48,412 nt of DNA, taken from the NCBI GenBank assembly GCA_031277295.1, contig JAITMV010000091.1:1-48412 (forward strand), given 5' to 3'. The notes beneath the pieces were generated by a model that did not search any database, was not told the origin of the DNA, and was given only the letters and a program-made list of their open reading frames with translations. The translations under genes were made by a program, and so were the position numbers. Source of the stretch: Burkholderiaceae bacterium. Lineage in GTDB: Bacteria > Pseudomonadota > Gammaproteobacteria > Burkholderiales > Burkholderiaceae_C. Of this stretch, positions 3-47,624 are shown piece after piece (position 1 is the stretch's first letter; each line of letters begins with the position of its first letter).

Positions 3-2492
3 AAAGCCATGCTCAGTGCGGGGCCTGATCAGCCTGATAGTGTTCTTGTCATTGAAAACGACCATAGCTTTGGCTCCGTTTTATCTCCTGAAAGCCCCTT
101 TTATCTGAGTCCGGAGGAGCTCAAGGCCGCACGCATTCAGACCGACTACCCACTCGGTACTTCGGCGGAGACTGGTGGTATTCGCCACACCCTCTTCAAT
201 CCCTACGTTCCGCCTGGTTTAGAGAAAGCAGAATATGGTTTCTCCGGCTATTGGGTTCGCGATCCCGTGGCCTTCACCAACGAATGGTCGCAGGGCGACT
301 CTCCCCTGCAAAAAGCTTTCACTACCTTGTTCGGTGGCGATCAGGGAGGACTACAAGCGCATGTAACTGAAAAAAACCAGTGGGGGATGCCGAGCAGTTC
401 AGGGGAAATAGATAGCAACGGTCAGCCGATACCGCAACCACCGTCGTATTTGACCTTGGCTGGGTACAAGTTTAGTTTGAAGCCATTCAATCATATGCAT
501 AGCGGTGTTCCTGATAACTGGAACAGCACAGCCAACTGGAACAGCACAGCCGGTGCGTATGGCAGCCTCGCAGCCAACGGCACCGGCATCAGAAAACTGG
601 ACTTTTCTCTTTTCGAGTTCTCGCAGTCGGAGAGTTTGGCCAACAAGGACGCGGTGTGGTTTGACCCGCAGTTCGGCTGGGCGACCGTTCATAACAACAG
701 GAAAGCCGATTTCCTGGACAAGCTCTTCCCGGTGCTCTTTGGCGGGACGATGAGCATCATGACTGGCGGTCTTCTGGGCGCGGCGTTCGCTGGCAGCAGT
801 AGCGCTCTTACTGGCGCTGCAATTGGCGCTGTATCCGGCGCGGTCGGCTCGGCGGCTACGCAGATGGCCGCTAACGACAAGATCAACTTCGGTGACATGC
901 TGCTGAGCGCGGTAAGCGCCGGTGTGAGCAGAGGCATCATGGACTCTGAATGGGTCAACGGCGCCAAAGGTCTGGGCCTGGACTTGGCCGGCACCGGCGG
1001 CACCGCCGCGGACATCATCACCCGCACCGTCGCCCACGCTGGCGTGCAAGGCGTTATCCAGGAGTTGACCGGCGGCAAGTTCAAAGACGGCGCCCTCCAA
1101 GGCGCCCTGGGCGCGTTGGCAAGCGAAGTCTCGGCTTCCATCAACAAGCAGATTGATGAGTTGGCCGTCATCGACCCCAACGCCGACTTCAACCTCAGCC
1201 CCGCCGACGTCAGCACTCTCAAAACACTCAGCCGCGCCGCCGGCAGCGCCATCCGCGCCCTGGGCAACCCGGACGACCCGGCAGCAGCACTTGCGAGTGA
1301 CTTCCTCAGCTCATTCATACCAGCGCCGCAGCCACTCAACCCGCTTGACCCCAACACCGCCCCAGCCGAACCGGGCGCTGACCCGCTGGGCGAGTTCATC
1401 GCCCAAAACCAGGAGGCTTGGGATCAGCGGGCAGCCGATCAGCCCAGCTTCGTGCGCGCAGGCGACTATGGCGGCTCGCTGGAGAACATTGCCCGCGCTC
1501 AGCTTGGGGCCGATGCCACCCAGCGCGAGATCAACAACTACGTCGGCCAACTCTTCGAGATCAACGGCATCACCGATGCGCGCACGATAGGCGCTGATTG
1601 GGACATCGTGCTACCCACGGCCAACACCCCCGCAGCCAGCACCGGCTTGAATGCCTATGCCCAGGACATCGCACAAGGCCAACGGATCACGCAAGCGGCG
1701 CAACAGGCGGCACAAGCTGCGCAACAGGCACAGGCGACACAACAAACCGTTGACCTATCGCCGACAATTGATAATGCGCGGCGGCTTGGGTTGATGGATA
1801 GCGATGCAGTGTCCACGGATACCACCGATCAGCCGCTGTATCTTAGTCAAGCCGAGATTGACAGCGAAAACTACCGACTCAACCAACGTGTTCCCATTAC
1901 AGTTGAGGGCGCCAGCAACCCATCGTCTGCAGGCAGCCTGTGGGACGGCTACCGGGACCGCATGGTAGAGCGAACAGGAAGTGCAATGTATGGGGACCCA
2001 CTACCAAACCCCATCAACAACAACCGATCCTTGACCGCCAATATTGGCGCGCTACTCGCAGATGCGCTAGATGAGTATCAACAAGATGTAAAGGAAGGGA
2101 TAATTTCGCCTTCTCAAAGCGCACTGAGACGCGCACAGAGAATGGCTGACCGTAATGTGGTGCCGCCTGGGACGCGAGTGTCGGGGAGTGGCGGTGCTGG
2201 AGTAAATAGTGGGAAGGTTATTATCGACAGCAAGATCGGCGGCCAACTTAAGGCTCGTGGATGGACGGAGCAAGAAGTGCAAGCCGTTGCCAATAGAAAT
2301 TCTGTCGGGGTAACGATGGATAATAGGTCCGCGGGGAAAACACCAGACGGATTACCGAGAAATGATTCCGCATCTGTATACGGCTCGAAGAATGGTTACA
2401 TTGTAGTAAATGATCGAACTGGTGAAGTTGTTCAAGTAAGTAGCAAAAATGATCCAAGCTGGATTCCTGATAGTCGAATTAATTGGAAGTAG
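3..2492 (+). CDS. C-terminal part of a large polymorphic/CDI-type toxin (hemagglutinin-like pre-toxin region, LysM-like segment, C-terminal colicin E5-type tRNA ribonuclease domain); 5' end outside the window
   Basis: Frame is open to the left edge. Alanine/glycine-rich hemagglutinin-like segment (LLGAAFAGSSSALTGAAIGAVSGAVGSAATQMAA...GGKFKDGALQGALGALASE). LysM-like segment (GDYGGSLENIARAQLGADATQREINNYVGQLFEINGI). C-terminus IDSKIGGQLKARGWTEQEVQAVANRNSVGVTMDNRSAGKTPDGLPRNDSASVYGSKNGYIVVNDRTGEVVQVSSKNDPSWIPDSRINWK closely resembles the colicin E5 nuclease domain. Confidence 0.88.
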   Translation, partial: KAMLSAGPDQPDSVLVIENDHSFGSVLSPESPFYLSPEELKAARIQTDYPLGTSAETGGIRHTLFNPYVPPGLEKAEYGFSGYWVRDPVAFTNEWSQGDSPLQKAFTTLFGGDQGGLQAHVTEKNQWGMPSSSGEIDSNGQPIPQPPSYLTLAGYKFSLKPFNHMHSGVPDNWNSTANWNSTAGAYGSLAANGTGIRKLDFSLFEFSQSESLANKDAVWFDPQFGWATVHNNRKADFLDKLFPVLFGGTMSIMTGGLLGAAFAGSSSALTGAAIGAVSGAVGSAATQMAANDKINFGDMLLSAVSAGVSRGIMDSEWVNGAKGLGLDLAGTGGTAADIITRTVAHAGVQGVIQELTGGKFKDGALQGALGALASEVSASINKQIDELAVIDPNADFNLSPADVSTLKTLSRAAGSAIRALGNPDDPAAALASDFLSSFIPAPQPLNPLDPNTAPAEPGADPLGEFIAQNQEAWDQRAADQPSFVRAGDYGGSLENIARAQLGADATQREINNYVGQLFEINGITDARTIGADWDIVLPTANTPAASTGLNAYAQDIAQGQRITQAAQQAAQAAQQAQATQQTVDLSPTIDNARRLGLMDSDAVSTDTTDQPLYLSQAEIDSENYRLNQRVPITVEGASNPSSAGSLWDGYRDRMVERTGSAMYGDPLPNPINNNRSLTANIGALLADALDEYQQDVKEGIISPSQSALRRAQRMADRNVVPPGTRVSGSGGAGVNSGKVIIDSKIGGQLKARGWTEQEVQAVANRNSVGVTMDNRSAGKTPDGLPRNDSASVYGSKNGYIVVNDRTGEVVQVSSKNDPSWIPDSRINWK

Positions 2493-34889: not shown

Positions 34890-34966
34890 CGGGGTGTAGC
34901 TTAGCCTGGTAGAGCGCTACGTTCGGGACGTAGAGGCCGGAGGTTCGAATCCTCTCACCCCGACCA
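34890..34966 (+). tRNA. tRNA-Pro (anticodon CGG)
   Basis: CGGGGTGTAGCTTAGCCTGGTAGAGCGCTACGTTCGGGACGTAGAGGCCGGAGGTTCGAATCCTCTCACCCCGACCA: acceptor CGGGGTG/CACCCCG, anticodon stem CTACG/CGTAG with loop TTCGGGA, T-loop GGTTCGAATCC, encoded CCA. Confidence 0.97.
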
Positions 34967-35567
34967 CGACACCCATCGCCCACATCGGCATGAAGAACCT
35001 GCCGATCTTCCCACGAGCCAAGAAGCCGAGTCGTCATCAGGCGACGGGCCTTCGGCTGTCTGCGCGCCTTGAAACGGCATAGATCGGGCGTTCGGGCCGA
35101 ATACGGGAACAGGGCCACCCAAGACGGCGACACCGGCGCAGCCTATCCATCGACATGCAAAAATCCGATGGCTTCGCAACCCTTTCGCAACCCGTTTGTC
35201 TCAGCACACACCAACGTGTACCCAGTTCGACGCAAGCACATGACCGTGTCGAAGTGTTTATGCACGTCGTATCGGCGCCGCCGCCCGGCAACATGACCAG
35301 GGCGCAAACCCTCACCCGTTTCGACCGTGATAGCGCAAGCACAACGCGGCTCACCAGCACGCCGCCGCGCTAAAATGCGCGCGTAACTTTGTGAACAGCG
35401 GTATACGTCGCATGTTTTGAAAGTGCGCATGAGCTAAGCAACTGTCCAGCACCGGCCTTCTTAGCCGAGGGCACTACGGCTTAGCGCCCGACCACAGGGC
35501 GGGGTTTCAAACCAAAATCAGTTTACGATGAAGCTTGGCTTGCTGTTCAACAAAGGCAAGCCGCATA

Positions 35568-37382
35568 ATGGCCTCGGCTATGAGATACGGTTTTCAGGAG
35601 CAAGGTCAGGGCTTGCTGCGCGCGGCGCTTTGGGTCGCGCACATGTGGCGCATACTGATGCGGATGATTGCGGGCGCGGTGCTGCTGCATTTCGTGCTTT
35701 TCGTCGTGTCGCAGGTGACGTTGCTGCTGGCTTTGCTGCTGCCCTGGAACATTCTGGCAAGCCTGACGACGGATCGGCTTCCTTGGCGCGTCGCGTGGCT
35801 TTTCGATGGTTATGGCCCCGCAACTGCGGTGCCGATTTTAATGGCGCTGGTTGTGGGTTGTTTCGTAGCGCACCTGCTTGCGGAAGCGGGCAACGCCCGG
35901 CTGGTGCGGCAAGCCTCGCGCTGGATTGTTGATCGGCATGACAAGACTGGTCTTTCGGACGCCCTGCGCGGCCAAGCGGCGCCTTTTCTCGGGCGCTTGC
36001 TGCGGTTGTTTTCCGTGTGTGGGTGGCTACTGCTGGCCGCCATAATAATGGCCTTGCTCTATCCGGCATTGTTCGCGGCGCTGCTCGTTTATATCGTGGT
36101 GGGCGCGTTGGTTATCTTGACGCTGCGGCCCGGCAAGCGATGGGGCACGGCCATTTCGGCCGATCTGCGCGGTAAGGCATGGTGGGGCGTCGGTTTCATC
36201 TGGCTAGTCGGCTGTGTGATCTACCACGCCTGGCATGGCGCCTTGCCGCATTTTTGGGCGCTGTTCCCAAGTCTGTTGCTGGGGCGGCAGATTCTGGTGT
36301 TTCTCACCGCAGTGCAAACTAATGTGACGTTTTTACTGGGGCGGGCTGAACGGGTGGAGGCGCTATTTCTTCCCGATGCGCCGCTTGCTCCGCCGCAGCG
36401 CCAGAGTGACGGCTTTGCCGGGCTGGCACAACGTGACAGACGCGCTGCTTGGCTGCCGGGGTTGCTGGCCGCTTATGGGGCCGGCGATTTCGAGGTACGC
36501 GAGCAAGCGACGCGGTGGGAGACGAACGGCAGGGTGCTCTGCCTTCTGGTGGATGCGCCAGGCTCGCAGCAGGATCGCGCGCTTCTGATCCGGGTGTTCC
36601 ACAAAAACATCCGCGAGCTTGGGCGCCATGAGCGCAATATCCTGGTTCATGCGGGTCGGCATTGGCCGGTACCTGAATTTCTTGGCGAAAGCGAATTGCG
36701 AGAAGGCCATCTGGCTCTTGTTTTCGAATGGGCCAAAGGACAAGACTGGCTGACTCGTCAAGAGATCAACCGGCAGGTGCAGTTGGAAGTGCGCAAAAGC
36801 CTGCTCGCTTGCGAAGTTCCGGCTGAATTGGTGGATCGCTATAAGCGCGGAAATATCCAGCTTGGGCAGCACTTGGCCCGGATCGACTGGGTGCTCTTAC
36901 GACAAATGGCGCTCACACCGGAGCTTGCCGCGACATGCGATAGGCTGCGCGGAAACTGGTCAGCGCTGCTGCGTTGGCTGGACCAACAGCCATTCCAGGT
37001 GTTGCTGGACAAGTTGGTGTGGCGGCTGATGGCGCGGGGTAAGGACGGTGCGTTTGTGGTCAGTAATTGGGCGAATTGGCGCCTCGAACCGCTTGGAATC
37101 GATTGGCCTTTGGGGTGGACCAAGCAAGAACTGGAACAAATGTTGGCGCAAGCGGCGCTAAGCCGCCCGGCTTTGCTTTCGGTGGCGGCGGATGACGTCT
37201 GTCTCGTCGCGCGTCTGGAGGAATTGAGAAAACTCAATGCCGATGGAAATTACACGGCGGTATTCGGCGTGCTCGGCGCACTGGAAACGCAATTGACCCA
37301 TTGCGTGAACACCCCAGAGTCCGGGCAGCTCCAGGTGCGAGAATCCGATTTTTTCGCAATCCAGAAAATGGATATCGCATGA
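35568..37382 (+). CDS. Membrane protein with C-terminal kinase-like (APH-type, possibly inactive) domain; start uncertain (35535/35568/35580)
   Basis: Several hydrophobic segments in the N-terminal half (AGAVLLHFVLFVVSQVTLLLALLLPWNILA; FSVCGWLLLAAIIMALLYPALFAALLVYIVVGALVIL). C-terminal part has an N-lobe-like pattern (ALLIRVFHKN...RHERNILVHAG..WPVPEFLGESELREGHLALVFEWAKGQDW). Confidence 0.7.
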   Translation: MASAMRYGFQEQGQGLLRAALWVAHMWRILMRMIAGAVLLHFVLFVVSQVTLLLALLLPWNILASLTTDRLPWRVAWLFDGYGPATAVPILMALVVGCFVAHLLAEAGNARLVRQASRWIVDRHDKTGLSDALRGQAAPFLGRLLRLFSVCGWLLLAAIIMALLYPALFAALLVYIVVGALVILTLRPGKRWGTAISADLRGKAWWGVGFIWLVGCVIYHAWHGALPHFWALFPSLLLGRQILVFLTAVQTNVTFLLGRAERVEALFLPDAPLAPPQRQSDGFAGLAQRDRRAAWLPGLLAAYGAGDFEVREQATRWETNGRVLCLLVDAPGSQQDRALLIRVFHKNIRELGRHERNILVHAGRHWPVPEFLGESELREGHLALVFEWAKGQDWLTRQEINRQVQLEVRKSLLACEVPAELVDRYKRGNIQLGQHLARIDWVLLRQMALTPELAATCDRLRGNWSALLRWLDQQPFQVLLDKLVWRLMARGKDGAFVVSNWANWRLEPLGIDWPLGWTKQELEQMLAQAALSRPALLSVAADDVCLVARLEELRKLNADGNYTAVFGVLGALETQLTHCVNTPESGQLQVRESDFFAIQKMDIA

Positions 37383-40084
37383 CGACGCAGCCCGATGGCA
37401 AGACGCCCGATCAGTCCAACGCACTGGCGACTGTGGCTTGGGCAGGAGATATCAACCTCGGGCGACGTTTCCATTATCGCAGCGTCCGCGCACAAGTGCG
37501 CGACCAACTGGCGCGGATCGCGCCATTTGTCGCGGCCGATCTTCGCATTGTGAACCTCGAATGCGTGGTTGCCACTTCTGGCAAGGAAGGGATCGATAAA
37601 CTCATGCTGGGAACCACCAGGAATGAGTACTCACCCTACTATTTCCGCGCCCGTCCGGAAATGCTCGAAATTCTGCTGCGCGGCGGGGTGGATGTGGTCA
37701 CGACGGCCAACAACCACAGCGGCGATTACGGTCCGGATGCCTTGGTCGAGCAGGGTCATTGGCTCGATCTGGCGGGCATCGACCATATAGGTTCCGGACG
37801 CCATCTGGAGGAAGCTTTCAGCCCGCTCATCCGGCGCGTCGGCGGGTTGAACATTGCGCTGTTCGGGCTGGACGCGACGCAGCCGGACTTTGTCGCGGGC
37901 GAGACAAGGCCGGGCCACGCCTGGCTGGATCCAACCAAACCTCAGGGTTGGTGCGAAATCATGAAACCCCGGATTGAGGCCGCGCGCGAACAGGCCGACA
38001 TCGTTGTGCTGGTCATGCACTGGGGTATGAACGGCCTGCAGCAGCCCGACAAGATGGAGATCATCGGCGGCCATGCGCTAATCGACGCGGGAGCCGACGC
38101 CATTTTGGGCGCTTCGTCTCATTTGCTGCAAGGCGTTGAAATCTACAAGAACAAACCTATCGTCCATGACGCCGGGAATTTTTTGTTTGATGCGGTATCC
38201 AGAAAACTCGGAGACGGCGGGATTTTTATTCTGGAAATGGATGGCTCGGGCGTGAAACATGTCATTTTCACTCCCCTTGAAATCGGTTTTTGTCAAACCG
38301 TTGTGCCGGCATTGCCTCAAGCGATCAGCATCACAACGCGGTTCGAGAAAAAATGCGCTGAATTGGGAACCCGGCTTGAGATCACGAAGGAAGGCCAGGG
38401 TGTGATCGAAATGCCTGATGATCGCCCTGTTCGCAATCTGCGCCCGCCGATTCCGGTGGCGCCCAAGGTGGGAGCGAAGCTGGCGCCGCTTTCCGAACCG
38501 AGACCCGAGTGGCTTGCCGAGGTGGTTCCCGAGGATGCTCGCTTGGCTGAGCCTCTGCGGTTGGGGCCGTTGGAACTCTTGGGCGTCAGGGCTTATCCTC
38601 AACAGATCGACCGGCTCAGATCGATTCATGTCGAATCATGGTGGCGTTTGGCCGAGCCGACCACGGTGGATTGGCGTATTGATTTTCTTGCATCGCCCGA
38701 CAAGCCAGGGCCGGTTGGCGACTGGGGCGGAGGAAGCGAGCATGATCCGTGTGACTGGATGTGGCCAACGAGCCGCTGGCGAACAGGCCAAATTTACCGG
38801 GATTTTTACAGTTTGCGCCGGCCCGCTGTCCGAGAGTGGGTCGACCAGTCGATTACTTTGTCGGTCGGCCTTGTCAGCCAGGCTGGCCGGATTGAGCGCC
38901 ACTGCCTGCCTGGTTCAATCGAGTTCAAGCTTTTACCGAAAGTCGGGCTTGAAGTTTCGCGCGCCAATCCAGCGCAGTATCAAATCCCGCCTGTGGAGAA
39001 AATCAGTCCAACGCCCCAAATTCTTTGGACTGCGCAGCAGCTTGAAGAAATCACCGGAGGGACGTGGCTGGTCAAGCCGCCTCAGACTTGGTTCGTTCGT
39101 TCGGTGACGCATAGGGCGGAACAACTCGAAAGCGGGTGTTTCGCGGCTCCTGCCTTACTGGCGGCCGTGGATCAGCGCATGGCTATGCGACATGAGTTGC
39201 CGCCAAATGTATGGCCTGAAAAATACTGGGACACCCATGACCAGCTACCGGCAAAGCAGAAATTGATCGCAGGCGCCATCGTTGCGCACTCTGTTGATGG
39301 GCTTGCCCCCGATTTCCCCTTGCTCCAAGTCACCGACCCTCTGCACGCGGTGATGCAACTCGGAGTGGCCGCACGCAACCGACTCAAGGGCCAAGTCGTA
39401 GCGGTAGCAGGCAGCGTGGGAAAAACCGCGCTGTGCCAGATGCTGATCAAGACGATGGCGGTGGATCACTCTGTTCTAGGCGATCTCATTGCGGGCTATC
39501 ACTCTCGCGCTGGAATTCTGCATACCATGGCCAATGCGCCGGAATTCACGGATTTGGTGGTTGTTGAGACTGAAGAGGCGGCGTTGAACGCGCGGCAATT
39601 TCAAAATAGTCGTTTACTGCGCCCAAATATTGGCATCATCGTAAATGTCATGCCACCTCGTTCGAGCAACCCGAAACCGAGACTGGATGTTGTCGCGCGA
39701 AGAATGGCCAACATCGTCGAAAGCCTGGAGGCGGGAGGCGCCTTGCTGCTTCATCGTGAAATCGAATTCTTTGATTTCATCTGCAAACGCGCACAAGAGA
39801 AAAGCCTCCGTCTGATTACTTATGGGCAGAGTGAGGATGCAAACCTTAGACTGCTCGACTACGATCAGCACAGTGGCCGAATTTGTGCTCGCTTGCCCGA
39901 TGGCAAAGAAGTTGAATATGGCCTCAATGTCCGTGACAAACATATGGCATTGAATAGCCTTGCTTGTATCGGGGTGCGCTTGGCGTTGGGATGGGAAATC
40001 GAACCTTGGCTCAAGGAGTGCGGGACGTTCATGCCGCCGACAGAAGAGCGCGTCGAATTATCTTCAGCGGGCGCTCAAGGATAA
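37379..40084 (+). CDS. CapA-type metallophosphatase fused to a MurF-like Mur ligase module
   Basis: CapA motifs: WAGDINLGRRF, IVNLECVVAT, VVTTANNHSGDYGPDALVEQG, IVVLVMHWGMN, ADAILGASSHLLQGVEIYKNKPIVHDAGNFLFD. MurF-like: LWTAQQLEEITGGTWL...VRSVTHRAEQLESGCFAA...LQVTDPLHAVMQLGVAARNRLKGQVVAVAGSVGKTALCQML...RPNIGIIVNVMPP. ATGA overlap with the previous gene sets the start at 37379. Confidence 0.85.
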   Translation: MTTQPDGKTPDQSNALATVAWAGDINLGRRFHYRSVRAQVRDQLARIAPFVAADLRIVNLECVVATSGKEGIDKLMLGTTRNEYSPYYFRARPEMLEILLRGGVDVVTTANNHSGDYGPDALVEQGHWLDLAGIDHIGSGRHLEEAFSPLIRRVGGLNIALFGLDATQPDFVAGETRPGHAWLDPTKPQGWCEIMKPRIEAAREQADIVVLVMHWGMNGLQQPDKMEIIGGHALIDAGADAILGASSHLLQGVEIYKNKPIVHDAGNFLFDAVSRKLGDGGIFILEMDGSGVKHVIFTPLEIGFCQTVVPALPQAISITTRFEKKCAELGTRLEITKEGQGVIEMPDDRPVRNLRPPIPVAPKVGAKLAPLSEPRPEWLAEVVPEDARLAEPLRLGPLELLGVRAYPQQIDRLRSIHVESWWRLAEPTTVDWRIDFLASPDKPGPVGDWGGGSEHDPCDWMWPTSRWRTGQIYRDFYSLRRPAVREWVDQSITLSVGLVSQAGRIERHCLPGSIEFKLLPKVGLEVSRANPAQYQIPPVEKISPTPQILWTAQQLEEITGGTWLVKPPQTWFVRSVTHRAEQLESGCFAAPALLAAVDQRMAMRHELPPNVWPEKYWDTHDQLPAKQKLIAGAIVAHSVDGLAPDFPLLQVTDPLHAVMQLGVAARNRLKGQVVAVAGSVGKTALCQMLIKTMAVDHSVLGDLIAGYHSRAGILHTMANAPEFTDLVVVETEEAALNARQFQNSRLLRPNIGIIVNVMPPRSSNPKPRLDVVARRMANIVESLEAGGALLLHREIEFFDFICKRAQEKSLRLITYGQSEDANLRLLDYDQHSGRICARLPDGKEVEYGLNVRDKHMALNSLACIGVRLALGWEIEPWLKECGTFMPPTEERVELSSAGAQG

Positions 40085-40088
40085 CCGG

Positions 40089-41150
40089 ATGGAACGGAAC
40101 ATGCCGCGCAGCGTAAAAATATGGTTGTTGTTTGCCGCCAGCTTGGCAGTGTGGGTTGGTGCGTCTCTTGCGGCATTTGCCGAACAGGGCACGCCCGCCT
40201 TGTGTGGAGCAACCCATGATGAAAACATTAATCAACTGGAGCGTGTACTTGAGCGCGATGAATTTCGCATTTTCTACACGCTGACGGGAAAACATGCGCT
40301 GATTGATCGCACTGATCGCAATCTCAACGGCATTCCGGACGAAGTCGAGGACCTGGCAACCCAGTTGACAACCAGCCGGGACATATTTTCCAAAATCATT
40401 GGATTACAGAACCCTTTGAAGCGACCGCGCTACGCCAACGCCCGCAAAATTGACGTTTTTCTTTTGCATTTCAATAAGGGAACAGGAACGGCTTATGACG
40501 AAATCCACAATCACATGGTCGACCGGGACGGTAAGGGCTATTGCGCGTTGCGTCTGAATGTGGCCATTGGTCGTCCCAATTCGAATTCCGCACCGACGCA
40601 CGAGCTTTTTCATCTTTACCAATACAGCTACAGCATGTTCAAGACACCCTGGTTTCTGGAGGGCGGGGCGAGATGGTCGCAATCTGCAGTTCAAGCGGAT
40701 CTGGCGCCCGAAAAACGGCTTTTGCCATCTGACCAGGCCCAACTTGATCGGCAGTTGCTTACCAGAATATACGCGGCAAGCCGAATATGGAATCGCCTCG
40801 GGGTTTTGTTGGACCCAACTGGCCGGTTGCATCTTCCGCCAGACATTCAGGCCAGGACCTATTTGGACGGAACGAAGGTTGTGCAGGACGATGTGCTGTA
40901 CGGCGCGGCTCTCATGAAGGATTTACTCGAGGAGCTGGACAGGGTCAGCCTGGAGGTTTCCCAGAGGAAAGGGTGGCGTCGATACCAGTGGCGAGAGGCG
41001 GACCAGAAGGATTTGTCGCATGCTCGGGATGTGGTTCGCGCTATTCTGGTGGCGGCAAGGCGGCAGGCCCGAAAGGCGGGGGTAGAGAATGCGGAACTTG
41101 AATCTTTTTTGCGAACGTTGGAGCTTAAGATTAGAAATGCAACCCAATGA
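40089..41150 (+). CDS. Secreted putative zinc metallopeptidase (HExxH/gluzincin-like)
   Basis: Signal peptide SVKIWLLFAASLAVWVGASLAAFA; Ca-binding-like DRTDRNLNGIPDEVEDL; THELFHLYQYSYSMFKTPWFLEGGARW (HELFH plus downstream EGGA). Start 4 nt after the CapA-Mur stop. Confidence 0.72.
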   Translation: MERNMPRSVKIWLLFAASLAVWVGASLAAFAEQGTPALCGATHDENINQLERVLERDEFRIFYTLTGKHALIDRTDRNLNGIPDEVEDLATQLTTSRDIFSKIIGLQNPLKRPRYANARKIDVFLLHFNKGTGTAYDEIHNHMVDRDGKGYCALRLNVAIGRPNSNSAPTHELFHLYQYSYSMFKTPWFLEGGARWSQSAVQADLAPEKRLLPSDQAQLDRQLLTRIYAASRIWNRLGVLLDPTGRLHLPPDIQARTYLDGTKVVQDDVLYGAALMKDLLEELDRVSLEVSQRKGWRRYQWREADQKDLSHARDVVRAILVAARRQARKAGVENAELESFLRTLELKIRNATQ

Positions 41151-41418
41151 TGTCACGTCAGTTGGCGAATGATGCGGTGCTCGAAAGCCGTTAGACCCCT
41201 ATTCTCCGAATATTGAAAAAATAGTTAAATCAGCAGACGCTCCGATCCGTTAAACCATTGACAAATGAAATTGATGGATTTGTTCAGCAGACAAGATACG
41301 AATCGGATCGGTGCTAAACTGTATCACGGAAATATGCAACGTAACGCGGCAACTAAAACGCAGTTTCACATCAATAGTTTTATGGAATAGCGTATTAATT
41401 ATTGAAAGGACCAGTCAC

Positions 41419-42192
41419 ATGCGGAATTGGCAAAAGGCGACGGCACGGGATGTCAGGGATTCATTTTTAGCATTTGGTCGAAAAATTCGAAAGAAGGAAC
41501 TAGAAATAGGTCGTATGCACTATGCCCTGGGATTAGCCCATGGCGTGCGCCAAGCAATTCATTGCGGCTATGATAAATTGGTGGCGGTAGAGCTTGGAGT
41601 GGCAGCTGGCAGTGGCTTACTCTCGCTGTGTCAGGCGGCTGAATATTTTCGTAACGAATTCGGCATGGATATTCGTGTTTACGGCTTTGATAGTGCGGCC
41701 GGCCTCCCGGAGTTGGCTGGTTATAAGGATCACCCAGAAGTATGGTGGGAGGGACAGTTCAAGATGCCCGATCCTGAAGAATTACGCGCGAAGCTCCCGG
41801 CTTTCGCCAAACTGCTGATCGGTGACGTGGGCGATACAATCACGGAGTTCGAGTCGGAAATAGCGGACTACCAGCTTGGATTCATCGTGGTCGATCTTGA
41901 TTTCTACTCGTCAACCACCAGAGCAATGAAAATATTCGAAATGAATCCCCTGCGTTATGTGCCGGCTCTGCCGCTCTATATGGACGATACCGAAGTACTC
42001 ATTTCTCAAAATCCATGGTGCGGTGAGGAACTGGCGATTCAAGAGTTCAATAACAATCATGAGTTCCGTAAAATAGAGCGCAAATCTCATTTTTGGGCGA
42101 TCCATAATTTTTATGTATGCCACGTGCTTGATCATCCCGTACGAACAGGTGAGACCCGCCCGCGCCTGCCATTCGAGATTCGTGCGTTCTGA
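41419..42192 (+). CDS. Class I SAM-dependent methyltransferase-like protein
   Basis: LVAVELGVAAGSGLLSLCQAAEYF motif I; DIRVYGFDSAAGLPELAGYKDHPEVWWEGQF; GFIVVDLDFYSSTTRAM. Start at MRNWQKAT (41419). Confidence 0.72.
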   Translation: MRNWQKATARDVRDSFLAFGRKIRKKELEIGRMHYALGLAHGVRQAIHCGYDKLVAVELGVAAGSGLLSLCQAAEYFRNEFGMDIRVYGFDSAAGLPELAGYKDHPEVWWEGQFKMPDPEELRAKLPAFAKLLIGDVGDTITEFESEIADYQLGFIVVDLDFYSSTTRAMKIFEMNPLRYVPALPLYMDDTEVLISQNPWCGEELAIQEFNNNHEFRKIERKSHFWAIHNFYVCHVLDHPVRTGETRPRLPFEIRAF

Positions 42193-42218
42193 AACAACTA
42201 GAGCTTGAGGAATATTTT

Positions 42219-43121
42219 ATGATGAATGCACTGCTGATTCCTGTTCATGTAGCCAAAATCAACTGGCTTGTTTCCTTGCTCAATACAACCCGTGAGAGAT
42301 TAAGAGAAAATGAGCCATTGAATTTTGACATCATTCTTGTCGTCTCAAATGATGGCGAGCGTGAAATTATTAGAAAATCATTGGATTTTTTTTGCGAAAG
42401 GATGACTCCATTCATAAAATACTTCAATGCCCAGGGTTATATTGAGGCCAAGTATGGAAACGGGAAAATTCTGGAGCGTTATCGAAGGAATGACGATAAA
42501 TGCATCGTTAATTTAAAAAAATTCATTAGTCTTTATTTTTTTATGAATAAATACGAATACATTGCAGTGATCGACTGTGACTGTATTTTTGTATCCGATC
42601 CAAACATACTTTTCCCAAAATTAGTTGAAAATTACTTGACAGGTGAATATTTCTCAGGGGGAGGTGGGGGAGTCGCGTTTACAAGCATCATGGAAGATTG
42701 TGCTTCATTTTTTGGCGAGGAAGAGGTTCAGAAGCTAAAGGAGATGTCAAGTTCTTTCAAGCTATTTCCTTGGTTTTTCGATGTCCCGATTTATTCTTCA
42801 GTAGATTTAAAAAGCTTTTTCAATTTTATGTTTTCCAAATCCACGGACGAAGAGGGGTTTTGGTTGAAGCTCAAATGGGGAAGTTTTGAGCACATCATTT
42901 ATATTTTTTATCGCGCTTTGTTCTTGGATGGTAAAATTCGTGACTATTCCGGAATGTTCCCTGGGAAGATTCCTGAACATTTGACTCAATCTGAAATTGA
43001 AAAAATAAAATATATTTATGACTATTCTCCTGCCTGGCTGCGATTTCGTGCCGTCGTCAATGAGACTATGAGCCCATCCAAAAATGATTTTTCCCTACTT
43101 TATCACGTAGATCGAAAATGA
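42219..43121 (+). CDS. Glycosyltransferase-like protein
   Basis: YEYIAVIDCDCIFVSDPNILFPKLVENYLTGEYFSGG (DxD-type motif) in a GT-A-like context; polysaccharide locus neighbours. Confidence 0.55.
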   Translation: MMNALLIPVHVAKINWLVSLLNTTRERLRENEPLNFDIILVVSNDGEREIIRKSLDFFCERMTPFIKYFNAQGYIEAKYGNGKILERYRRNDDKCIVNLKKFISLYFFMNKYEYIAVIDCDCIFVSDPNILFPKLVENYLTGEYFSGGGGGVAFTSIMEDCASFFGEEEVQKLKEMSSSFKLFPWFFDVPIYSSVDLKSFFNFMFSKSTDEEGFWLKLKWGSFEHIIYIFYRALFLDGKIRDYSGMFPGKIPEHLTQSEIEKIKYIYDYSPAWLRFRAVVNETMSPSKNDFSLLYHVDRK

Positions 43122-43202
43122 ATATTTCTTTTATTTGCAGATCCCCTGACACTTTAAAAATTCGACCCATGACAGTTGCCTTCAAATCTGGCGATTGCCA
43201 TA

Positions 43203-44966
43203 TCATTGCGTAAACTCTTTTTTTTCAAGAAGACTTACAAAATTCATTAACTTATCTTGGAGTGAGCGCCACTGGGTTGCCGTGGTGCTCAAATCCTTTT
43301 CCAGGGCCTCGCTCATACCAGAAAACTTCTTTTTCATGTCTTCAAATGTGAAATATCCACCATGCCGCAGCATACCGCGATCCCTTGAGGTCAGGCCCTG
43401 TTTGGCGATCCATAGGGCAGTAAGGTAGTGCGACACGCATTCATAATCCTTGAAGACAAAAATACTCTGAGCATCCAGCATCTCCTGCCAAATGGAACAC
43501 ATTTTCAACATGGTGTCTCGTCGCGCCACCCACATGTTGTCGGCAGGTCCGAAGCCGGCTCTGAGGTAGTTTAAATAGACAACGCCTTCTTCCACTGCTT
43601 TAAAAGACTCCCTGTTGGCAGGAATTGGGCACCGCAAATCAGGACGCATCCTGGCAATATAATCATATCTGATCCCATGTTGTTCTTCATGTTTCAATAA
43701 TAACTGCATGACGGCGTAGTTTTTATAAAACATTTTAGCTTGATTGTAGCTACCTTGATATTCTATCTTTTTTAAATCGAAGGGGATTGACTGTATGAAA
43801 TCATTTTCATTTTCTATTTCACATGCGGCTAACGGAAAGTGATCCTTGTAAAAATCAATACCCAGGTCTTTGACAATACCTTCACTGAAGGTAGCAAAAA
43901 GGTGGGGGAATGTCGCCCGAAATTTTTCAGTATTGTCCAATTCCGGGATGGGGAAAATTGATTCAAATTCCGTTCCGAATGTCCTGCCGATGAACTGGCT
44001 GGGTTTGAATACACCCGGCCATTCTGGAACCTTATCCCAGGTAGAAAGAAAAACATCGGCCTGGAGTGGATCAATAATATTGACGCGAAGATTTTCCAGG
44101 CAGGCACTCGTTCCGCGAGTTTGACCAGTCAAGCACATGGCGATACGTGGTTTTTTTTCTGAAACTGCCCGGTTGATACTGATTATTGGGTTGTGCCATG
44201 TTTCGATTGTTGGCGGAACCTGCCGCACAGTCGCTTTATATTCCACAGCCTGACCAAGCTTTCGATAAACAAGGTCTAGCAGCCTTTTTTGATATGGGGT
44301 TTCCTGGTTGCGGGCTATTTTGGTGAGAAGTTGAATGATGTGCTGCATATTGACCGGATTACGTCCAAAAAAATGGTTCGAATCCAGATGAGCAATAAGT
44401 AGTTTGACAAGGCGCCTGCCTCGGAGAGAAGTTGGAAATACTCTGTTGCTGAATTTACGCATTTCCAAATCGAAGTCACCGTATTTGGCATAAGCAAACA
44501 GCGAAAAAATACCTGTCATTTGCCGGCATTTCCATCGCCGGAACATGGGGACAAAGTTCGCTTGCAAATACTTTCTCATTTCTGCAAAATTTTTGTCTCG
44601 AAATAGCGCAAGAACGGCTTGTTCATGAGAATCAGCTTGTGGAGCGGTTTCTCCTTTCATGATGGGCAGAAAAATTTTGGCGTACCAGTTAATAATGATA
44701 CGTGTCGCTCGTATCTGTTTTTCGGAATACCTGGAATCAGCAAGCAGGTTTAGAAAAAAATTTACTCCTTTCTCTTCTATGATGGTATGCATTTCTTCCA
44801 AAAAACTCCCATCCGCCAACCAGATCAAGAAATCGACATAATAATAGTCATCGAGAGTGCACAGAGTCTGGTAGGTCGTTTGAATATTCTCGAAATCCCA
44901 ATTGCCATCATAAACATGAATATTTTCTAAATGCCATGCGATGGTGAGATGCTTTTGATCACTCAT
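43203..44966 (-). CDS. Surface-polysaccharide protein with N-terminal helical region and C-terminal glycosyltransferase-like domain
   Basis: C-terminal half KPRIAMCLTGQTRGTSACLENLRVNIIDPLQADVFLSTWDKVPEW...YDYIARMRPDLRCPIP resembles polysaccharide-locus glycosyltransferase-like proteins. Confidence 0.6.
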   Translation of the reverse strand: MSDQKHLTIAWHLENIHVYDGNWDFENIQTTYQTLCTLDDYYYVDFLIWLADGSFLEEMHTIIEEKGVNFFLNLLADSRYSEKQIRATRIIINWYAKIFLPIMKGETAPQADSHEQAVLALFRDKNFAEMRKYLQANFVPMFRRWKCRQMTGIFSLFAYAKYGDFDLEMRKFSNRVFPTSLRGRRLVKLLIAHLDSNHFFGRNPVNMQHIIQLLTKIARNQETPYQKRLLDLVYRKLGQAVEYKATVRQVPPTIETWHNPIISINRAVSEKKPRIAMCLTGQTRGTSACLENLRVNIIDPLQADVFLSTWDKVPEWPGVFKPSQFIGRTFGTEFESIFPIPELDNTEKFRATFPHLFATFSEGIVKDLGIDFYKDHFPLAACEIENENDFIQSIPFDLKKIEYQGSYNQAKMFYKNYAVMQLLLKHEEQHGIRYDYIARMRPDLRCPIPANRESFKAVEEGVVYLNYLRAGFGPADNMWVARRDTMLKMCSIWQEMLDAQSIFVFKDYECVSHYLTALWIAKQGLTSRDRGMLRHGGYFTFEDMKKKFSGMSEALEKDLSTTATQWRSLQDKLMNFVSLLEKKEFTQ

Positions 44967-45694
44967 TTGCGCCTACCCTTTTCTTTCTCTGCAGCGATGA
45001 GTTGTCTATATTCCTCTGGCGTACCACAGAATTCGATGAGAGCGCGCTCTACGATCTGATAAAATATCCTCTGCCCCTGATCTATAAGGATATTATAGAG
45101 CGGCGCGATATAATACTCTCCCTTGGACGTTCTATTTTTCGATTTTTCTTGCACAAATATTTCATTGAATTTCCTGCTGTCTTTGAAGTAGTAAAGCCCG
45201 TCGCTGCACAGATCAGAAATGCGTTCTTTTTCGGTCGTTCTGGCTACATTGATTGCATCAGCAGGATCGACAAAAGACCAGTGTTCGCCCTCCCCTCTGA
45301 ATACCTCGAGATACCCATCGCAATCTTTAAGAAATTCTGGTTTTTCATAATGATGGCGAAACGTATCAATATTGAAAATAAACAATGGAAAGTTATCCTT
45401 GCGATCAGAAATGGCAAGGTGAACTGTTTCGGCTTGCCCTCCTGTGGCATCCGGAAGAACATGCAAGTGCGCGTTGCGCAGGCCCAGTCTGGCAATTTCT
45501 CCCTGCACGAAAGGGATGGATTGATGCGTGTCACGGAGAATAAACAGGAATTCATCAGTGGTAAAATATTTTTCAAAACTACGCACGGATCTGGAAAAAA
45601 CCGTTTCTTCTCCAATGGGCAACATATACTTTGGCAGATCATAACCCGCCGCAAAGAAACGACTGCTGAGTCCAGCCATGGGTATGACAATCAT
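44963..45694 (-). CDS. Nucleotidyltransferase (NTP transferase family)
   Basis: MIVIPMAGLSSRFFAAGYDLPKYMLPIGEETVFSRSVRSF; ATGGQAETVHLA; FIFNIDTF. Confidence 0.85.
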   Translation of the reverse strand: MIVIPMAGLSSRFFAAGYDLPKYMLPIGEETVFSRSVRSFEKYFTTDEFLFILRDTHQSIPFVQGEIARLGLRNAHLHVLPDATGGQAETVHLAISDRKDNFPLFIFNIDTFRHHYEKPEFLKDCDGYLEVFRGEGEHWSFVDPADAINVARTTEKERISDLCSDGLYYFKDSRKFNEIFVQEKSKNRTSKGEYYIAPLYNILIDQGQRIFYQIVERALIEFCGTPEEYRQLIAAEKEKGRRK

Positions 45695-45697
45695 GTT

Positions 45698-47251
45698 TTA
45701 CTTTCTTTCGCAATAAGTAGCATAAAGGCGCAAGGCATTGGCAAAAAATGCCCGTTGTCGCTGAGTATTGTCAGCATGTAACGGCAACATGGAGAGAAAC
45801 AGCAAGATGACCAGAGGCAGGCAATCCTTGACATGCACGCCTGGAATGAATTTTTCATTCCAGAATTGCTGCCGGATGGCTTCTGTGCGTGGCTCCAAAG
45901 CAAAAGTCAGTTCGTAGGAATACAGATTTGTGCTGTTTAGAGTGAAGTACCCCGCAACAATGAAATCATACAATCCGATGATGGAATGGGTGAGTTTAGC
46001 CAAATCATACTTCTGATCACCCAGAATGGTCGGGTTCTGATCTGCATCCATGCCTCTTGGATCGAGCAGCTTGATTCCATCAGAACGCAGATCGATCAAC
46101 ATATTGCTGAGGCAGAGGTCTCCATGCAAAAAGCATGGAATGCAAGACAAAGTAGTGACTTGGGCAAAACAGTCAGCGCAGATTTCTTCCAGAGAGGGTA
46201 GCTGCTTTCCTGCATAGTATAAAGGCTGTTTATTATTTAAACCAATACTTTGTGTAAATTCCTCCAGGCGAGTCTGTGTTTTATTTATGTATAGCTTTTC
46301 CGCTTTTGTTTTCAGATTTTCTTCTGAATCAACCGTTGTGCGCGCATCATTGAAAAAATATCTGATCTGCTCAAAAATTCGCGCCCAGAAAAAAACAGGA
46401 TTTTTACCGTGAACAAAAAGCTCGTTCAACGGATTCAGGGGAAGATATTCAAGTTGATAGAATTCTTTTCCATTTTTTTGACCGCTGTCAATAAGCTGGG
46501 GAGTGTATTTTTTTAATGCTGGAGGAACGGATTTGAACCAGGTGGCTTCCGCTGTAATTTTAGCGGAATTTTCTCCGGTTTTATTGACTACACGATTATT
46601 GATTGTCAAGGTATTGAAAGCCCGTTCCGTGGTCATCATTGCGCGGGCCTTGAAATAAGTGTTGACATGACCCATGTCCATCCAGTCGTCAGAAACATGC
46701 ATTGTCATGAGATGCAATTTCATGTATTGCCTGACGCCGGCCACAAAGTCGCCGCGCGCCAGCGCCAGACAGCGCGCCAGATCTCTGGGGGATGAGAAGG
46801 CGAAATACCCGGTCCAGATGTAATCCTTTCCTGAGGCCACTTCCCGGGTCCAGTTGTAATTATCGCGGCTGACAGCAATGTCAATCAGGTCGAGGCTGCG
46901 AGGAAAGTCGTTATACAGGGTGTCGCCATGAAGCATTCGTAAATGGTCCGCAGGGGCGATGGTATTCAGGATGTACAGCAGCGCTTCGGCCAAATTGAAA
47001 TCTTCCGGAGTGGTGATGCTGGAGACGGCAAGACTATCCAGTAAGCTGCGTTCGTGGGTGGTTATCGGATATAATTCCGGCAGCGAGACCATAATTTTTT
47101 CATCGGGAAAGGCCGCGCGAAGTTTTGGCACCTGAAATTCAATCAGTTTCCTGTTGGCCAAAGGGATAAAACAAGCAGGTAGCCGGCCAAATTCAGCCTG
47201 TAGTTCCTGAGTAAGATAAGCACCGGAATTGATTAGGATCATATCAGTCAC
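45698..47251 (-). CDS. Nucleotidyltransferase-like / APH-type kinase fusion
   Basis: N-terminal NTP-transferase-like segment (FGRLPACFIPLANRKLIEFQVPKLRAAFPDEKIMVSLPE...HLRMLHGDTLYND); C-terminal kinase motifs IPCFLHGDLCLSNMLIDLRSDGIKLLDPRG. Confidence 0.78.
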   Translation of the reverse strand: MTDMILINSGAYLTQELQAEFGRLPACFIPLANRKLIEFQVPKLRAAFPDEKIMVSLPELYPITTHERSLLDSLAVSSITTPEDFNLAEALLYILNTIAPADHLRMLHGDTLYNDFPRSLDLIDIAVSRDNYNWTREVASGKDYIWTGYFAFSSPRDLARCLALARGDFVAGVRQYMKLHLMTMHVSDDWMDMGHVNTYFKARAMMTTERAFNTLTINNRVVNKTGENSAKITAEATWFKSVPPALKKYTPQLIDSGQKNGKEFYQLEYLPLNPLNELFVHGKNPVFFWARIFEQIRYFFNDARTTVDSEENLKTKAEKLYINKTQTRLEEFTQSIGLNNKQPLYYAGKQLPSLEEICADCFAQVTTLSCIPCFLHGDLCLSNMLIDLRSDGIKLLDPRGMDADQNPTILGDQKYDLAKLTHSIIGLYDFIVAGYFTLNSTNLYSYELTFALEPRTEAIRQQFWNEKFIPGVHVKDCLPLVILLFLSMLPLHADNTQRQRAFFANALRLYATYCERK

Positions 47252-47624
47252 CGTTACCGATTAGTTTACATATCTCAGGATAGGAAAGAGATACAAATTC
47301 ATTGGGCCGGATGGCTTTGTCATCCACATAAAAACCTTCTCGACCGCACCATGGTTTACCGATGTGTACGGCGTCGTAGGGCACCTGATGTTCATTCAGC
47401 CATGCAATGATGCCCGGCAGGGTATGGACAGCAATCTTGCCCACGTCGCCCGCATAAGTCCGCATATTTCTGCTGGTATAAATAACGATCTCGAAGCCTT
47501 GCTGCTTATATTCACGCAAGACTTGAATTGCTTTTTCATTTGGCCTGGCCTCGGAATAGTTTCCGCCTTGCGAAAAGCACAAAGTACTGTCAAGATCACA
47601 AATGATTTGTCGGTCACTTAGCAT
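47244..47624 (-). CDS. HAD family phosphatase (capsule biosynthesis phosphatase type)
   Basis: IICDLDSTLCF (DxDxT), IVIYTSRNMRTYAGDVGKI, IGKPWCGREGFYVDDKAIRPNEF. Confidence 0.85.
   Translation of the reverse strand: MLSDRQIICDLDSTLCFSQGGNYSEARPNEKAIQVLREYKQQGFEIVIYTSRNMRTYAGDVGKIAVHTLPGIIAWLNEHQVPYDAVHIGKPWCGREGFYVDDKAIRPNEFVSLSYPEICKLIGNGD

Follow-up and report, generated by a model that had tools for sequence, protein, structure and literature searches.

The window analyzed here is a stretch of 48,412 nucleotides (contig JAITMV010000091.1) from the genome of a Burkholderiaceae bacterium (GCA_031277295.1). It contains at 35568–41150 a three-gene operon for the proteins K, CapA-Mur, and H. 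In this report, we propose that the operon is probably an accessory module of a system for the modification of surface adhesins with Asp-x dipeptide repeats, in which ligases would amidate the side chains of Asp. The operon would act in trans with T, a protein assigned below to the GtfC family, and with T-Mur, a fusion of T to a MurF-like ligase.

The three genes are found on the forward strand, and their open reading frames confirm the coupled operon described in an earlier note on this DNA. The gene for K (35568–37382) encodes a membrane protein of 604 residues, and it overlaps by ATGA (37379–37382) the gene for CapA-Mur (37379–40084). The latter encodes a protein of 901 residues composed of a CapA domain, a beta-rich linker, and a degenerate MurF-like middle domain (psi-Mur). 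A gap of 4 nucleotides separates it from the gene for H (40089–41150), a secreted protein of 353 residues.

The function of the operon is suggested by the loci in which its homologs occur. Homologs of K, CapA-Mur, and H are physically linked to T and to an adhesin in L034/L215, L035/L214, L072, and L129. With DREP for the Asp-x repeat protein, ABC for the ATP-binding cassette protein, ABH for an alpha/beta hydrolase, and Ddl for D-Ala-D-Ala ligase, the gene order is DREP-ABC-HlyD-TolC-T-ABH-K-CapA-Mur-Ddl in Paracoccus, TolC-DREP-ABC-HlyD-T-ABH-K-CapA-Mur-Mur2-Ddl in Alcaligenes, and DREP-H-Mur-CapA-T in Desulfovibrio. Genome G353 has ABC-HlyD-regulator-T-Mur-H-K-DREP on one strand. Paracoccus denitrificans DSM 413 carries the arrangement DREP-T1SS-T-ABH-K-CapA-Mur-Ddl, where T1SS stands for the type I secretion genes. 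These surface-adhesin loci agree with the envelope-directed role that had been predicted for the operon. The survey of gene neighborhoods suggested in the earlier note showed conserved co-occurrence. A scan of GTDB species genomes located relatives of CapA-Mur in 42 loci, most of them aligned over the full length; the fusion is thus present in approximately 40 other genomes, and K is immediately 5' of CapA-Mur in Paracoccus, Alcaligenes, Pseudogemmobacter, and a Zoogloeaceae metagenome-assembled genome (L039). The protein from Variovorax has an additional N-terminal domain of approximately 580 residues, which is T; in other genomes T has a gene of its own or belongs to a fusion with a different order.

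Two copies of T were found in the genome of the window. The first, on contig C19, overlaps galE. The second, on contig C32, is fused to an intact MurF-like ligase and is followed by paralogs of K and H (65 and 54% identical), all in overlapping genes. No Pfam or NCBIfam family was matched by T (580 residues). The AlphaFold2 model has a predicted local distance difference test score (pLDDT) of 88.6 and shows an (alpha/alpha)6 barrel, for which the nearest folds are those of the AGE-type sugar epimerases/isomerases and the GH76/GH105 hydrolases. His264, Glu389, His426/428, Asp549/550, and His553 are invariant residues of T. T of staphylococcal plasmids is encoded by a gene for 538 residues directly downstream of those for SdrD-like proteins and is annotated as a poly(glycerol-phosphate) alpha-glucosyltransferase. 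GtfC of S. aureus is also 538 residues in length and is not included in CAZy. Its gene directly follows the SD-repeat gene pls, and both GtfC and GtfD are required if Pls is to be fully glycosylated with N-acetylhexosamine (HexNAc) (PMC5230774). Of the published primers, GtfC-F agrees with the T gene of the plasmids at 26 of 26 positions, and GtfC-R matches at 20 of 23 positions on the opposite strand, 390 bp from GtfC-F. Because these primers match the staphylococcal T gene, we assign T and GtfC to one family from sequence. The assignment of T as a TagE-like glucosyltransferase was rejected, since the modeled fold is an AGE/GH-like barrel and not that of a glycosyltransferase; the corresponding name of GtfC appears to be mistaken.

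Very large surface proteins with extended tracts of (Asp-x)n are encoded in the T loci, where x is Ala, Ser, or Gly. They were identified in the Gram-positive genera Listeria (an LPXTG protein with DA repeats), Enterococcus, and Staphylococcus, in Agrobacterium, Nitratireductor, Sulfitobacter, Klebsiella (DS), Desulfovibrio, Xylophilus, Paracoccus, and Alcaligenes, and in several further Pseudomonadota, one of them with (DG)n. They are usually accompanied by type I secretion genes in the Gram-negative bacteria and by LPXTG-type proteins in the Gram-positive bacteria. Over 27 stretches Asp occupies 3399 of 3402 in-phase residues while x is variable, a constancy that is partly built into the way the stretches were found. 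The repeats are written with mixed synonymous codons, and thus selection acts on the protein. In the genome of the window, a strict search for a (DA)n pattern returned nothing, and a relaxed Asp-x pattern identified (DS)n adhesins on six contigs (C40, C83, C87, C146, C157, and C223). The adhesin on C87 has BapA_N and Big domains, as in the type I-secreted adhesins of the Bap/BapA type; unlike those proteins, it carries a long (DS)n stalk in addition, in a genome with a dedicated set of T, Mur, CapA, K, and H proteins. Several of these contigs end within the repeats, and therefore linkage to the window would not be visible in the fragmented assembly.

The association of T with the repeats was determined in a set of 399 genomes, for which the p values treat the genomes as independent although they are related. 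A 12-unit Asp-x pattern was matched 30 times or more in 9 of 15 genomes with T and in 1 of 384 without it (p = 8e-14), and at least once in 10 of 15 and 32 of 384, respectively (p = 1e-7). H is present in 8 genomes, all of which contain T (p = 4e-13), and K in 3 genomes, 2 of which contain T.

The partners of T, either fused or adjacent, are a MurF-like ligase, a glycosyltransferase of family 4 (GT4) similar to SdgA/SdgB, or an ATP-grasp ligase. A GT4 is fused to or beside T in 3 of 4 (DS)n loci (L126, L140, and L145), and that of L126 matches SdgA/SdgB. Among the (DA)n loci having a T partner, the partner is a Mur ligase in 12 of 12. For the loci scored for both features, repeat and partner are associated with a p value of 0.007. 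Three T proteins (L121, L122, and L127) are fused to a YheCD-type ATP-grasp domain as the third type of partner. Among the peptide ligases of the ATP-grasp type are enzymes that add amino acids to proteins, such as RimK and the tubulin-tyrosine-ligase-like enzymes. We infer that the natural target of the ligases is the side chain of Asp, because both Mur and ATP-grasp enzymes activate carboxylates and because the pure (DA)n repeats have no hydroxyl group for glycosylation.

These loci resemble those of the staphylococcal GtfC/GtfD and SdgA/SdgB systems (PMC5230774, PMC3794999) in the size, annotation, and gene order of T, in adhesins with Asp-Ser or Asp-Ala repeats as clients, and in the GT4 partner of the (DS)n loci. 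They differ in the partner, which here is a ligase of the Mur or ATP-grasp type, and in the frequent presence of CapA, K, H, an alpha/beta hydrolase, and type I secretion genes. They are found in Gram-negative bacteria, and many of the repeats are (DA)n without Ser. One alternative is a pure glycosylation system, in which T and glycosyltransferases add sugars to the adhesin and the Mur or ATP-grasp enzymes add amino acids to the sugar, for example as the amide of a uronic acid. The requirement for GtfC in the glycosylation of Pls (PMC5230774), the overlap of T with galE, the fusion of T to an SdgA/SdgB-like GT4 in L126 and L140, and the similarity of its fold to sugar epimerases and glycoside hydrolases are all consistent with such a function. 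So is a gene that separates T from K in L039 (2285–6010, forward strand), whose product of 1241 residues combines a polysaccharide pyruvyl transferase domain with FrhB/FdhB and hexapeptide domains. However, T also adjoins repeats of pure (DA)n and (DG)n, in which Ser and Thr are missing, and thus it cannot serve in general to O-glycosylate the repeat. In addition, the T-Mur and T-CapA-Mur proteins contain no glycosyltransferase domain. We judge a system of glycosylation alone to be rather unlikely and retain amidation of Asp as the preferred reading.

The nature of the transferred group is hinted at by two loci. In L035 (11132–13174) and L038, a gene for a second Mur ligase, which resembles S11 peptidases in an N-terminal stretch, is followed by a gene for D-Ala-D-Ala ligase, and the transferred group may accordingly be a D-Ala dipeptide. 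The same genes could be read as signs of a role linked to peptidoglycan, where T, Mur, and CapA would tailor the adhesin or anchor it to precursors, for example by joining the Asp side chain to the amine of a stem peptide. The Mur domains are indeed MurF-like, Ddl is encoded in the loci of Paracoccus, Alcaligenes, and Pseudogemmobacter, and the latter two also have a second Mur. Most of the loci have no Ddl, however, the genome has genuine murF genes at other sites, and the Gram-positive adhesins are already anchored through LPXTG, which together make a peptidoglycan-linked role improbable. Two near-alike murF-like genes were observed on contigs C212 (L003) and C29 (L004), and these may represent a duplication, a mixture of strains, or contamination.

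The CapA-Mur protein of the window contains a CapA domain (PGA_cap, calcineurin-like; Pfam PF09587, E = 6e-58) at residues 18–271 (37430–38191) and a MurF-like ATP-binding domain (Mur_ligase_M, E = 1.6e-12) at residues 676–866 (39404–39976). Both parts of the CapA-MurF fusion recognized in the earlier note are therefore supported by profiles, but the designation MurF was too strong, as neither Mur_ligase_C nor the conserved His is present. The CapA motifs GD, NLE, NNHxxD, HWG, and GxxxH are retained. The Mur part was compared with members of the family that have an intact ligase and with the MurF proteins of the same genome. It keeps the P-loop (GxxGKT, as GSVGKT at 678), the His of the N-x-x-x-H motif is gone (PSH/PAH is replaced by PPR, in PPRSS), and the protein stops before the C-terminal domain. 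With the catalytic His and the whole C-terminal domain lost, the Mur part is probably inactive as a ligase. Loss of the carbamyl-lysine was also considered as proof of decay and was dropped, since the genuine MurF proteins of the genome do not have this residue either. No signal peptide, transmembrane segment, or other hydrophobic segment was found in the 901-residue protein, and thus it should be cytosolic.

It had been proposed that the operon is a rearranged relative of PgsBCA/CapBCA that makes poly-gamma-glutamate or a similar polyamide polymer of the envelope. The strong CapA domain is shared with that system, and a Mur-type domain, a membrane partner, and a secreted hydrolase are indeed combined in one operon. 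However, CapA is cytosolic by prediction rather than anchored in the membrane, and it is fused to a Mur part that is closest to MurF (TIGR01143, E = 3.9e-21) and not to PgsB (E = 0.15). No PgsB or PgsC is present, and the relatives of the operon accompany adhesins and type I secretion genes, which points to the decoration of (Asp-x)n adhesins. Since the Mur part has decayed, it cannot be a polymer-making ligase, and we regard this proposal as very improbable.

The degenerate Mur domain could instead mean that the window operon is a copy of the C32 operon that is decaying and at present has no function. The CapA-Mur protein of L039 is degenerate as well and has in addition lost the lysine of the P-loop. 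However, the open reading frames of the window are full length, the CapA motifs are kept, and the orthologs in L039 are found in the same order with identities of 72% (K), 72% (CapA-Mur), and 68% (H). The two CapA-Mur proteins are also cut short at almost the same position. This common truncation, together with the conservation of everything else, indicates a retained function of the window operon, and we consider decay without function to be a poor explanation with little chance of being correct.

The hydrophobic stretches of K fit approximately six transmembrane helices, which are followed by a soluble C-terminal region of approximately 340 residues. No Pfam or NCBIfam family, including PgsC/CapC, was matched by K. 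The kinase-like domain claimed for this protein could not be confirmed: no hidden Markov model was matched, the AlphaFold2 model is of low confidence (pLDDT of 63), and the best fold matches have E > 0.03, including a weak match to APH(4) (E = 0.08). The membrane domain of an ABC exporter, suggested by weak Foldseek matches, was rejected by profile comparison (hhalign probability of 0.1%). Homologs of K occur in adhesin loci of the T/GtfC type. The description of H as a secreted HExxH protein was borne out by a signal-peptide-like N-terminus, the motif HELFH at residues 171–175, and Glu at 191. Residues H171, E172, H175, and E191 are invariant among six H sequences, and the combination of HExxH with a downstream acidic ligand is that expected of a putative zincin-type metallopeptidase. 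The relationship of H to NCBIfam MXAN_6640 HExxH is distant (49.7 bits, below the curated cutoff of 140). Sequence searches of the PDB with T, K, and H found nothing useful.

In the proposed system, T would engage the Asp-x repeats in the cytoplasm prior to export, and the partner of T would decorate them. A glycosyltransferase partner would add sugars to Ser. A Mur or ATP-grasp partner would use ATP to activate the side-chain carboxylate of Asp, which would then be joined to an amino acid or a dipeptide. In the window protein CapA would be the working domain, acting on the same peptide, and psi-Mur would serve as a binding scaffold for T-Mur or for the repeats. K, in the inner membrane, would couple modification to export, and H would trim or release the adhesin in the periplasm.

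In cyanophycin synthetase, a Mur-like domain carries out this chemistry on poly-Asp. The polymer cyanophycin (PMC9262961) is a precedent, and the loci described here share with CphA1 a Mur-ligase-type domain predicted to amidate Asp. They differ from it in that the poly-Asp-x backbone is ribosomal, the ligase is MurF-like rather than CphA, the T-Mur proteins have no ATP-grasp domain for polymerization of the backbone, and ligation of the side chains is predicted. A precedent for CapA is MslH, a CapA-fold epimerase that acts on a ribosomal lasso peptide (PMC10406935). Most of its catalytic residues have counterparts by motif in the window protein (D11, E44, N87, H88, D91, H259, and H295). The similarity lies mainly in residues 183–269, and H261 is replaced by Gly. 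CapA may be an MslH-like epimerase or a hydrolase, and epimerization of the Asp repeats is hypothetical. We tentatively suggest, as a reading with somewhat less than even prospects, a ribosomal counterpart of cyanophycin. Giant adhesins with hundreds of Asp-Ala or Asp-Ser dipeptides would be amidated at Asp by T-guided Mur or ATP-grasp ligases before type I secretion, the cytosolic CapA-fold enzyme would edit the product, and the dead Mur would serve as a scaffold.

Several observations weigh against this interpretation, as does the bias in the count of Asp noted above. The operon of the window adjoins neither T nor an adhesin gene, both of which lie on other contigs of a fragmented metagenome-assembled genome, and the link in trans is drawn from the genome and from homologous loci. 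The Zoogloeaceae genome of L039 contains the decayed Mur, and the search for a T-Mur in it found none. L125 and the genome of the window are exceptions to the partner rule, with (DS)n repeats and T-Mur, and T occurs without Mur in Listeria, Enterococcus, and Acinetobacter. Mass spectrometry of Pls identified HexNAc on (SD)n and no adduct on Asp (PMC5230774); the pls locus has GtfD rather than Mur. Chemical modification of the repeats in these Gram-negative bacteria is a prediction by comparison, and the roles of K, H, and CapA are conjectured from where they lie and which motifs they have.

The operon is immediately preceded by tRNA-Pro(CGG) (34890–34966, forward strand), downstream of which the GC content falls from approximately 60% to 40–46% (34890–47600). 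The tRNA and the fall in GC content suggest that 34890–47600 is a genomic island. A four-gene block on the reverse strand (43203–47624) has weak matches to NTP-transferases and to APH/fructosamine kinases, and matches to HAD proteins; its homologs are found in identical order beside K-CapA-H in L039, and it perhaps has a role in a surface glycan. At the start of the window (9–2492, forward strand) is a gene for a protein of 827 residues with a C-terminal Colicin E5 ribonuclease domain (Pfam, E = 6e-33), a probable toxin of the polymorphic type.

The open-access literature that was searched contained no paper in which Mur or CapA proteins are connected with Asp-x repeats. The system as it extends across phyla, its branch with ligases, and the decayed Mur all appear to be undescribed, as the earlier note had anticipated for the operon. 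SD-repeat adhesins have so far been known mainly as Ser-glycosylated proteins of staphylococci. Our results suggest that one family, GtfC, serves Asp-dipeptide-repeat proteins in both Gram-positive and Gram-negative bacteria, and that the chemistry of decoration changes with the type of repeat, with a glycosyltransferase for (DS)n and a carboxylate-amine ligase for (DA)n. This leads to the testable prediction of a new protein modification, the amidation of Asp side chains in a ribosomal repeat protein. The orphan families K, H, and CapA-Mur gain a functional context, and proteins annotated as Mur ligases or CapA outside of peptidoglycan and capsule loci may be protein-modifying enzymes.

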